Shown here: positions 9,250 through 44,939 of the stretch, piece by piece | Layout: every line of letters begins with the position of its first letter | Numbering within the stretch: the stretch's first letter is position 1 | Assembly: GCF_950295315.1 (NCBI RefSeq) | Contig: NW_026647565.1 | Location: forward strand, 17,277-81,276 | Length of the DNA stretch: 64,000 bases | DNA from: Erinaceus europaeus | Taxonomy: Eukaryota; Chordata; Mammalia; Eulipotyphla; Erinaceidae | Reading direction: 5' to 3' | Notes under the pieces: model-generated | The model's input: the letters and a program-made list of their open reading frames with translations, nothing else | What the model was told of the DNA's origin: nothing | Database searches by the model: none | Position numbers and translations under genes: made by a program

Positions 9250-9255
9250 ATTAGT

Positions 9256-9635
9256 TGTTGGTATGCTTCTAATTCTGCTTCTAAAAACCCCTTTTGTTTC
9301 ATTTGGTTTAATCCCCCCTTCTTAACACTGTATTCTATTTACATAACCATTGTTAATTAAGCACCACCCTCCCTCCAGGGCATTGGTGGTTCAGTGGTAG
9401 AATTCTCGCCTGCTCTGCCCCCTCTCCTTGTCATACCCTGATTTTCACCAGTCACTTTTCTCTCCACCCTCTCTACATCACATCCTGTTTACATCCTACT
9501 TGGCAAGTATATTAGTTTTAGTTTAGCTTAGCTTGTCGTAGATTGTGCTGCGTTCTGCATGAATAAAGAGATACTGCATACAGCTCAGCCATGAGTCCCT
9601 GGTCGTCTGTCTCCGCTTGCGAAGCTAGTCCGACA
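9256..9635 (+). mobile_element. Solo LTR with embedded tRNA-Gly 5' half (copy A)
   Basis: Begins TGTTGGTATGCTTC and ends GCTAGTCCGACA. The six flanking bases are ATTAGT (9250-9255) and ATTAAT (9636-9641), a 6-bp duplication with one change. AATAAA is at 9562-9567; the TATA region has decayed to AAGTATATTAG. Positions 9380-9413 are identical over 34 nt to the 5' end of mammalian tRNA-Gly-GCC. Related copies lie at 35243-35626 and 44502-44939. No internal viral sequence is present. Confidence 0.9.
9380..9413 (+). other. tRNA-Gly-GCC 5'-half sequence inside LTR U3
   Basis: Seen: 34 nt beginning GCATTGGTGGTTCAGTGG and ending CTCGCCTGC. Known: this equals nt 1-34 of mammalian tRNA-Gly-GCC, stopping within the anticodon. 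The T-arm and 3' half are absent, so it is not a tRNA gene. An A-box-like TGGTTCAGTGG is retained, the B box is not. Confidence 0.85.
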
Positions 9636-9641
9636 ATTAAT

Positions 9642-23654: not shown

Positions 23655-25855
23655 GCTTCAGCATAGTATTGGAAGTTCTTGCCATCACAATCAGGCAAGA
23701 GAAAGAAATCAAAAGAATACAAACTGGAAGGGAAGAAGTCAAGCTCTCACTATTTGCAGATGATATGATAGTATTCATAGAAAAATGCAGAGAATCTAGT
23801 GGAAAGATACTGGAAGTTATTAGGCAATATAGCAAGGTGTCAGGCTACAAAATCAGTGTACAAAAACCAGTGGCATTTCTTTATGCAAACACTAAATCTG
23901 AAGAAGAAGACATCCAGAAATCACTCCCATTCACTGTTGCAGCAAAATCAATAACATACATAGGAGTAAATCTGACCAATGAAGCGAAAGACTTGTATAC
24001 TGAAAACCATGAGCCTCTACTCAAGGAAATAAAAACTGATACCAAGAAATGGAAAGACATCCCATGCTCATGGATTGGAAGAATTAATATCATCAAAATG
24101 AATATTCTTCCCAGAGCCATATACAAATTTAATGCAATACTCATCAAAGTTCCACCAAGCTTCTTTAAGAGAATAGAACAAAAACTACAGTCATTTATCT
24201 GAAACCAGAAAACACTTAGAATCACCAAAATAATCTTGAGGAAAAGAAACAGAAATGGAGGCATCACACTAACAGATCTCAAATTACATTATAAGGCCAT
24301 CACAATCAAAACAGTCTGGTACTGGAACAAAAATAGCTACAATGACCAGTGAAACAGAATGGAAAGCCCAGAACTAAAGCCCTGTTGTTAAAATTCGGAG
24401 GCTTTAGCTGGCCGGGCTAGCTTCATGGGTGGGTAACAGAGACGACCAGAGACATACGGCTGGGCAGGGAAGCTGTATTTCTTTATTCAGGAACAACGAT
24501 TCATAAACAAAACCAAACTAATCACCAAACAGAACTCTGCTGCCTCTTTGCCCCAGCGGCAGCGCAAGCACTCTCTCTTACTCTCGAACTCTGGAACTCT
24601 CCCACTCTCACACTCTGGAACTCTGTCGGGGTTCCTAGGAGCGGGGCCAAGCAGGCCCGCGAAACTAACAGGACTGATCCAATTCTCTTAGCGCGGGAGA
24701 GCTAAAACAAACCAATGTAAAGCATACAACAAACCCCCACACCTATGGACATCTAATCTTTGAAAAGGGGGCCCACAGTATTAAATGGAGGAAGAAGGCA
24801 CTCTTCAATAAATGGTGTCTGGAAAACTGGGTTGAAACATGCAGATGAATGAAACTGAACCACTTTATCTCACCAGAAACAAAAGTCAACTCCAAATTGA
24901 TCAAGGACATGAATGATCAAGGACCTGAATTTTAGACCAGAAACTATTAAATACTTAGAGGAAAACACTGGTGGAACACTTTCCCACCTAAACCTCAAGG
25001 ACATCTTTGATGATACAAACCCAATTGCAAGGAAGACTAAAACAAAAACAAATCAATGGGACTACATCAAATTGAAAAGCTTCTGCACAGCCAAAAAAAC
25101 CATCACACAAACAACGAGGCCCCTCACAGAATGGAAGACCTTCATATGCCATACATCAGACAAGAGACTAATAGCCAAAATATGTGAAGAGCTCAGCAAA
25201 CTTAGCAACAGAAATGCAAATGACCCCATCTATAAATGGGCAGAGGATATGAACAGAACATTCACTCTGTACATAAAATACCCAAAGGGCTAATAAACAC
25301 TTGAAAAATTCCTCCAGGTCACTGATTGTCATAGAAATGCAAATAAAAACAACATTGAGATACCACCTCACTCCTGTGAGAATGGTATAAATCAAAAAGG
25401 ACAGGAGCAACAAATGCTGGGGAGGTTGTTGGGACAAAGGAACACTCTTACACTGCTGGTGGAAATGTAAATTGGTCCAGCCTCTGTGGAAAACATTCTG
25501 GAGAACTCTCACAAGGCTAGACATGGACCTTCCATATGACTAAGTAATTTCTCTCCTAGAGATATACCCCAAGGACTCCATAACACCGAACCAAAAAGAT
25601 ACATAAACACTTTATTTTCATAGCAGCACAATTCATAATATCTAAAACCTGGAAGCAACCCAGGTGCCCATAAACAGAAGAATGGCTGAGAAAGCTGTGG
25701 TATCCACAATGGAATCCCATGCAGCTATGAAGAACAATGAACCCACTTTCTCTGACCCATCTTGGATGGAGCTAGGAGGAATTAAATTTAAGTGAGTTAA
25801 GTCAGAAAGACAAAGACAAGTATGGGATGATCCCCTCATAAACAGAAGTTGAGAA
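23655..25855 (+). pseudogene. L1 ORF2p C-terminal part, broken
   Basis: The open segment at 23642-24202 has the RT palm block [13 protein letters not shown] and the following thumb region ([20 protein letters not shown]). After a stop at 24200-24202 the frame is lost, then cut by a solo LTR. A later segment (24913-25293) matches the region before the Cys-rich C-terminus. The Cys-rich block itself is at 25400-25470 in another frame. N-terminal endonuclease and the first RT blocks are absent through 5' truncation. Confidence 0.85.
24383..24731 (-). mobile_element. Solo LTR inside L1 ORF2, minus strand
   Basis: On the minus strand it starts TGTTGTATGCTTTACATTGG and ends in CA. The flanks AAGCCC (24377-24382) and AACCCC (24732-24737) form a 6-bp duplication with one change; removal restores alignment with the L1 at 16500. 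Minus-strand AATAAA is at 24482-24487, followed by a GTCTCTGGTCGTCTCTG block close to the U5 of the LTRs at 9256 and 44502. Internal sequence is gone. Confidence 0.88.
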
Positions 25856-35192: not shown

Positions 35193-35659
35193 ATACTCTG
35201 GTGAGATCTTTCCTAGCTCATAGGACTAGGAAAATACTCTGGTGTTGGTATACTTCTAATTCTGCTTCTAAAAACCCCTTCTGTTTCATTTGGTTTAATC
35301 CCCCCTGCTTAACATTATTCTATTTCATAACTAAGCACCAGCATGCCTGCATGGCATTGGTTTAATCCCCACTGGTTCATAATGTCTTTTTGCTCCGTCC
35401 CCTTTGTAGTACACCCTGATTTGCACCACTTTTCGCTCCACCCTCTCTGCGTCACTTCCTGTTTCTGCCCTACTTGGCGAGTATATATAGGATTGTGTTT
35501 TTAGTTTTTAGTTTAGTTTTAGCTTAGCTTGGTTTAGATTGCGCTGCGTCCTACATGAATAAAGAGATATTGCGTACAACCATGAGTCCTTGGTCGTCTG
35601 TCTCCGCCCACGAAGCTAGCCCGACACTCTGGTGAGATCTTTCCTAGCTCATAGGACTC
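35193..35659 (+). repeat. 41-bp tandem duplication split by a solo LTR
   Basis: The block CTCTGGTGAGATCTTTCC to CATAGGACT occurs at 35196-35227 and again at 35627-35658. Without the LTR and one TSD the two copies would be 41 bp apart, so the duplication pre-dates the LTR, which entered the second copy. Confidence 0.8.
35243..35626 (+). mobile_element. Solo LTR of the tRNA-Gly-half family (copy B, diverged)
   Basis: TGTTGGTATACTTC to GCTAGCCCGACA with a perfect 6-bp duplication CTCTGG (35237-35242 and 35627-35632). TATATATA lies near 35482 and AATAAA at 35558-35563. In the place of the tRNA-Gly sequence it has GCATTGG (35354-35360), 13 other bases, GGTTCA, then text that no longer matches. 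It is either a degraded form or an ancestor without the full capture. Confidence 0.9.
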
Positions 35660-44501: not shown

Positions 44502-44939
44502 TGTTGGTATGCATGAGACCCCTTCTGTTTCATTTGGTTTAAATCCCCCCCTGCTTAACACTATTCTATTTACATAACCACTTCATTCTATTTACATAAC
44601 CACTGTTAACAAGCACCACCCTCCCTCCAGGGCATTGATGGTTCAGTGATAGGATTCTCGCCTGCTTCGCCTCCTCCTTGTCACACTCTGATTTTCACCA
44701 GTCACTTTTCTCTCCACCCTCTCTATGTCACATCCTGTTTCCACCCTACTTGGCAAGTATATATAAAGACAGCATTGTGAGTTTTAGGGTACTTTAGTTT
44801 AGCTTAGCTTGGTATAGATTGTGCTGCGTCCTGCATGAATAAAGAGATACTGCCCACAGCTCAACCTTGAGTCCCTGGTCATCAGTTACCCGCCATGAAG
44901 CTAGCCCGGCGAAAACAACATAACCCGTCGAAAACAACA
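44502..44939 (+). mobile_element. Solo LTR with embedded tRNA-Gly 5' half (copy C)
   Basis: Starts TGTTGGTATGCATG; the end is taken at AACAACA with flanks GAGGGG (44496-44501) and TAGGGG (44940-44945). TATATATAAAG at 44758 is a good TATA box and AATAAA lies at 44838-44843. CATTCTATTTACATAACCAC is duplicated at 44560-44603. The 3' end carries a duplicated CGAAAACAACATA block that the other two copies lack. The tRNA-Gly match is at 44632-44665 (31 of 34). Confidence 0.88.
44632..44665 (+). other. tRNA-Gly-GCC 5'-half sequence inside LTR U3 (copy C)
   Basis: 34 nt in the same LTR position as 9380-9413, with three transitions (G to A, G to A, A to G). It has the same start and the same end point within the anticodon. 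Confidence 0.8.

Follow-up and report, generated by a model that had tools for sequence, protein, structure and literature searches.

Across a large family of retroviral LTRs in the hedgehog Erinaceus europaeus, the U3 region carries the 5' half of tRNA-Gly-GCC, and this is a real capture, confirmed in the window (the whole 64,000-nucleotide stretch of DNA analysed here) and in LTRs across the family. The family appears to be a class II-like ERV family, and we consider it fairly probable, judging from the junctions, that reverse transcriptase switched onto a putatively packaged 34-nt half, so that about 30 nt of the U3 would have been replaced.

The tRNA Half and its LTRs in the Window

Four LTRs of the window are relevant here, two with the half (A and C), one of the same family without it (B), and one distant relative (D); their features are as follows.

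9256–9635, plus strand: LTR A, solo, 380 bp, TG...CA ends, exact tRNA half; TSD ATTAGT/ATTAAT (5/6) at 9250–9255 and 9636–9641
9380–9413, plus strand: tRNA-Gly-GCC half in LTR A, 34/34, ending between anticodon bases 2 and 3
9380–9387, plus strand: left block GCATTGGT, common to LTRs without the half; its first base is tRNA base 1
9388–9410, plus strand: unambiguous tRNA core, bases 9–31, from comparison with LTRs without the half
9411–9413, plus strand: right block TGC, common to LTRs without the half (CTGC in some)
9562–9567, plus strand: AATAAA polyadenylation signal of LTR A, with the tRNA half upstream of it
24383–24731, minus strand: LTR D, distant relative with the common R-U5, used as outgroup; R-U5 match, ends and TSD-like GGGGTT/GGGCTT
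35243–35626, plus strand: LTR B, solo, family of A and C by alignment, without the half; perfect 6-bp TSD CTCTGG at 35237–35242 and 35627–35632
35354–35393, plus strand: alternative slot of LTR B, GCATTGGT + 29 nt + TGC, the 29 nt being similar to part of the U3 farther upstream
44502–44939, plus strand: LTR C, solo, TG...CA ends, half with G7A, G18A and A22G; TSD GAGGGG/TAGGGG (5/6)
44632–44665, plus strand: tRNA-Gly-GCC half in LTR C, 31/34; G18A and A22G are marks of a larger lineage

The original prediction had read 9380–9413 as the first 34 bases of tRNA-Gly-GCC, and alignment and BLAST agree: all 34 bases are identical, the E-value of the 34-mer in the window is 1.4e-14, and the runner-up ungapped 34-mer there reaches only 21 of 34. 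These values, along with a reversed control that finds nothing genome-wide, rule out a chance origin. Three further points of the prediction also held, namely that copy C differs by transitions only (G7A, G18A and A22G), that the half occupies the corresponding LTR position in A and C (offset 125 and 131, respectively, with upstream indels in C), and that the segment stops inside the anticodon, between its second and third bases. The anticodon of the genome's own tRNA-Gly-GCC genes starts at base 33 according to ARAGORN (one prediction says 34, its start lying one base earlier), and the three genes examined, all called tRNA-Gly(gcc) by that program, carry the same 34-mer. The reference sequence of this tRNA is in print in a table of PMC11277137, and, in the available portion of PMC13127386, the published fragment tDR-1:34-Gly-GCC is letter for letter the 34-mer of the window.

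Because the half lies upstream of the AATAAA signal in LTR A, it falls within U3. Since LTRs without the half have the same left block, GCATTGGT, and the same right block, TGC, only tRNA bases 9–31 (9388–9410) are surely of tRNA origin. ARAGORN reported no tRNA gene in the window and Rfam, at the gathering threshold, no match there; no repeats were found within LTR A. A tRNA gene or pseudogene is rejected because there is no cloverleaf or tRNA 3' part and only three of the 415 exact genomic copies of the 34-mer run on into tRNA, and insertion of a tRNA-derived SINE because the LTR directly flanks the half in all 20 sampled exact copies and in 30 half-bearing rows of the alignment.

As for the surroundings, LTR B is inserted in tandemly repeated host DNA (35195–35658), with ACTCTGGTGAGATCTTTCCTAGCTCATAGGACT flanking it on both sides. 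The 3' end of LTR C (44910–44939) is longer and holds two copies of CGAAAACAACA; A and B differ there. The sequence around LTR C is one that we take to be SINE-like. Neither the 34-mer nor an R-U5 pattern found a match among the viral contigs scanned.

Copies Across the Genome

In the 2.72 Gb of genome surveyed, the exact 34-mer occurs 415 times and its exact G18A+A22G variant 1,440 times, i.e., 1,855 exact copies for the two main variants together, and the reversed control of each gives none. The half is thus more than a two-locus oddity and, as had been proposed, it has spread in subfamilies, one lineage with the exact half and a larger one with G18A and A22G. The outcomes that would have told against a captured segment, random boundaries or a full tRNA gene or SINE present at two loci only, are not what the genome holds; the boundaries are fixed and the copies number in the thousands. 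The next five bases of the tRNA follow the 34-mer at three of its 415 exact sites, all of them tRNA-Gly-GCC genes, and when about every fifth of 100 exact halves listed on contigs C1–C3 was inspected, 20 of 20 lay in this LTR context.

LTRs A, B and C were also used as queries. With part of LTR A, 40 of 1,141 first-look candidates were scored and the half was present in all 40 fetched, a sample biased towards this outcome since the query contains the half. Adding copy C of the window gives 41 places (L002 was left out, being the same place as L009), whose halves have no mismatch in 22, one in 14 and three in five; the half starts at an LTR offset of 113–126 across the places found with LTR A. 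An own 6-bp TSD with at most one mismatch, scored at whichever of several candidate 3' ends fitted best, accompanies 23 of the 41, and hence these places represent separate integrations. With LTR B, 40 of 3,163 candidates were scored, and the 30 fetched, window B among them, all lack the half. LTR C (40 of 713 candidates scored) returned 30 of 30 with a half bearing G18A and A22G, window C among them, some with further changes or indels. These two substitutions are carried by 38 of the 54 half-bearing rows scored.

An estimate of abundance came from a U3 pattern downstream of the half, which has 12,451 exact matches in the genome. The first 80 of 100 listed matches, from the first 5.5 Mb of contig C1, served as 80 consecutive LTRs chosen regardless of the half: 58 contain it, 22 have another segment of ~40 nt in the same slot, and none is unclear. 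Extrapolated from these 5.5 Mb of one contig, with a pattern that misses diverged copies, half-bearing LTRs would number about 9,000 genome-wide.

The Retroviral Family

The LTR ends, TSD and primer site of these elements suggest a class II-like (betaretrovirus-like) ERV family. The ends are TG...CA with a 6-bp TSD, perfect in window B and within one mismatch in the 23 places mentioned above. Primer sites read beside the LTRs of eight selected elements are Lys-like in all eight, by a motif and assignment that we take to be of the Lys type: exact in L009 and L167, with two mismatches in L031, and with small indels or changes in L004, L064, L164, L165 and L166. The best match to a Gly-type site, among the four stretches scored, has 8 mismatches in 18 positions, so that a Gly primer relationship is ruled out, in line with the earlier statement that the half does not reflect the usual pairing of a retrovirus with its primer tRNA. 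A purine tract precedes several 3' LTRs, and in L009 the 5' and 3' LTRs show 9 differences over 315 aligned positions.

Pairs of LTRs lie ~7.25 kb apart at three places on G000:C1 (2101906/2109170, 3030536/3037811 and 3345718/3352974), the first pair being near-identical in the trees, and other pairs lie ~2.1–2.2 kb apart, e.g., C92:44988678/44990812. The two spacings apparently represent a longer and a shorter form of the family.

Two States of One U3 Slot

LTRs with the half read GCATTGGT, 23 tRNA bases and TGCTCCGCCCCC, and those without it read GCATTGGT (or GCACTGGT and similar), ~29 nt and TGCTCCGCCCCC (CTGC in some). The two states therefore have in common a microhomology of 7–8 nt on the left, GCATTGG(T), and one of 3–4 nt on the right, (C)TGC. 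Since LTR B and others hold another segment in the slot, the event was the replacement of a U3 segment and not a pure insertion; the half had been described as an insert at a fixed LTR position, and the fixed boundaries stand but the insert does not, as the third copy in the window, B, makes plain. The segment in the other slot is no decayed tRNA half, as 605 of 5,000 shuffles of the LTR B core match the half equally well globally and 577 do so locally.

Two minor features touch the slot. A tandem duplication of ~22 bp directly after it (CTCTCCTTGTCACACCCTGAT), in L132, L134, L144, L145 and others, marks a sub-lineage with and without the half. L136, L144, L145, L168, L188, L205 and L207, all half-less, have GGTTCAATCCC in the slot, a match to the short form of the B-box consensus, GWTCRANNC.

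To read the order of the two states, a tree of 49 rows was built from the part downstream of the slot and rooted on LTR D, which is distant and offers 95 columns. Its first three branches, L143, window B and L042, are all without the half. Furthermore, diversity is greater among half-less slots (mean 0.14 in 10 rows) than among half-bearing ones (0.087 in 30 rows). From this one distant outgroup with its 95 columns, together with the slot diversity, we favour the half as the derived state and the other slot as the older one. Collecting the family, building its tree and mapping the boundaries had been the check envisaged at the outset, and it speaks with two voices: the boundaries are fixed and three half-less branches come first, but five half-less rows (L135, L144, L145, L155 and L158) are placed among rows with the half.

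Recombination may account for this pattern. When the regions upstream and downstream of the slot were each put into a tree without the outgroup, with five of the 40 sampled rows left out for want of an anchor (every one of them half-bearing), each tree showed two main types, and the half occurs in more than one combination of them; L140 and L149, both half-less, fall inside a half group. The half/no-half label changes 4–6 times on the trees. Because G18A+A22G is found in different LTR backgrounds, these data suggest one capture followed by recombination between backgrounds rather than repeated capture.

One provirus (L064/L015, G000:C96, ~57469953–57472687, minus strand) has a 5' LTR without the half and a 3' LTR with it, within one TSD, ATATGA, so that both slot states stand together in one element. 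Either recombination between genomes or later gene conversion would produce such mixed LTRs.

Probable Template and Proposed Mechanism of the Capture

The position of the microhomologies points to the template. The left block GCATTGGT opens exactly at tRNA base 1, and the base before it in the three tRNA genes (a, a and t) differs from the G of the LTR, i.e., the homology stops short of the tRNA gene leaders; the exactness of this start is blurred by the block itself, which is common to both slot states. The right block TGC closes at base 34, which is also where tDR-1:34-Gly-GCC terminates in the available portion of PMC13127386. As the blocks coincide with the 5' and 3' termini of a known RNA, we prefer the tRNA half as template, copied during minus-strand synthesis. 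Minus-strand DNA ending in ...GCA would have annealed to the 3'-terminal UGC of the half, and reverse transcriptase would have copied the half as far as base 1; the extended strand would then have annealed by its new end to GCATTGG(T) already in the U3, with copying of the viral RNA resuming. One founder element would have been amplified, and recombination between co-packaged genomes would have moved the slot between LTR backgrounds.

The junctions fit the switch onto a tRNA half that the original prediction had put forward, but the half as donor is deduced from them, and the main rival is a full-length packaged tRNA-Gly-GCC, which reverse transcriptase would enter at the anticodon loop via TGC and copy to the 5' end. 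The same junctions are expected from it, TGC falls within the 7-nt anticodon loop (as placed from the anticodon position), and retroviruses package full tRNAs; it needs, however, an internal entry into a folded tRNA and does not predict that the segment should end at the 3' end of the half as printed in the accessible text of PMC13127386, and we regard it as rather unlikely. Much less credible is copying at the DNA level from a tRNA-Gly gene, by microhomology-mediated template switching while a single provirus was being repaired or replicated. Such switching uses short homologies of the same kind, and three exact candidate donor genes exist in the genome, but it would predict ends anywhere in the tRNA gene, and the blocks lie at the mature 5' end and the anticodon loop, without leader or downstream tRNA sequence.

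Two other readings concern the history of the slot rather than the donor. If the half were ancestral in the family, the other state would be a later replacement by a copy of the upstream U3, which its core indeed resembles (only 2 of 5,000 shuffles of the LTR B core are as good), and the common GCATTGGT would simply be the start of the tRNA; the flanks are almost equally diverse in rows without and with the half (0.226 and 0.214), and the outgroup-free tree places L140 and L149 within a group of half rows. The rooted tree with its three half-less first branches and the greater diversity of the half-less slots argue against this order, which we hold to be doubtful, about on a level with the full-length tRNA. 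Least probable of all is that the half was selected, with tRNA-Gly-half pathways or Pol III factors acting on the LTR through sensing, sponging or the A box. In its favour, LTR A contains an exact Pol III A-box consensus, the half is frequent in the family (58 of 80 LTRs), and 5' tRF-Gly-GCC, according to the part of PMC7599909 at hand, suppresses MERVL-associated genes in mouse, an action exerted via U7 snRNA and histone expression. Against it, this exact A box is absent from LTR C and is broken in the larger lineage because of G18A; A, B and C have no exact B box, the nearest being two mismatches from GGTTCGANTCC (in C) and one from GWTCRANNC (in all three); and the half is not conserved in excess of its flanks. 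A Pol III promoter function is ruled out by the missing exact B box and the broken A box.

A half that is most likely without function beyond that of tolerated U3 sequence agrees with these data. In the 41 places, mostly A-like, the mean pairwise difference is 3.9% inside the half and 4.7% outside, i.e., no extra conservation is seen in this set. The exact tRNA match was not kept, as the larger half-bearing lineage has G18A+A22G, and, because the segment is in sense orientation, antisense RNA and minus-strand DNA would be the only partners for base pairing with a tRNA half. The proposal that the LTR is sensed by, sponges, or is regulated by tRNA-Gly halves thus finds no support: the segment diverges like its flanks, most of its carriers have lost the exact match, and its orientation is sense. 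The portion of the review PMC7599909 at hand makes no mention of a sequence match of 5' tRF-Gly-GCC to an LTR.

Relation to Known Systems

The available part of PMC4997597 describes "patch repair" of retroviral genomes, in which host sequences are joined in at chance microhomologies; an experimental 7SL recombinant is among the cases. The hedgehog family resembles it in having a short host segment in a retroviral genome with microhomology at its junctions, the blocks being present in LTRs without the half. It differs from what that part describes in that the donor is a tRNA half (or tRNA), that the segment lies in U3 and hence in both LTRs, and that it was fixed and amplified in a germline family. 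Among the matches listed (titles and abstract openings, with subscription literature mostly outside), no report of an LTR with a captured tRNA piece appeared. As far as these matches show, the capture seems known in kind and new in donor, position and scale.

Other tRNA fragments offer partial parallels. As excerpted, PMC5318995 describes a 32-nt piece of tRNA-Gly-GCC inside and outside tRNA space in human; copies outside tRNA genes are common to both cases, and all 20 of the hedgehog ones sampled belong to a single LTR family, in which the boundaries of the segment are fixed. In the same part of PMC7599909, 3' tsRNAs compete at the ERV primer site, so that there, too, a tRNA fragment meets an LTR element; unlike that case, in which the tRNA 3' end acts at the PBS, the hedgehog segment is a 5' half in U3 and the primer sites are Lys-like. 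With respect to tDR-1:34-Gly-GCC in the available text of PMC13127386, the 34 nt and both ends are identical, and the hedgehog copy differs in being part of an LTR in the genome rather than a processed RNA.

The family records the patching of a retroviral genome with part of a host tRNA, family-wide and with both junctions readable, and the packaging and copying of tRNA halves by retroviruses thereby becomes a directly testable question. We tentatively put forward, from the genomic copies, that the LTRs may be a germline fossil in which tDR-1:34-Gly-GCC, a tRNA half of the kind seen in stress and sperm, templated retroviral reverse transcription, the chimera having become the commoner form of one of the large LTR families of the genome. 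Nearly all exact copies of this regulatory RNA would then reside in LTRs that could make or mimic it. A practical consequence follows for this widely studied fragment: with 415 exact copies, three of which run into tRNA genes, small-RNA reads of tDR-1:34-Gly-GCC in hedgehog are not assignable to tRNA by mapping alone.
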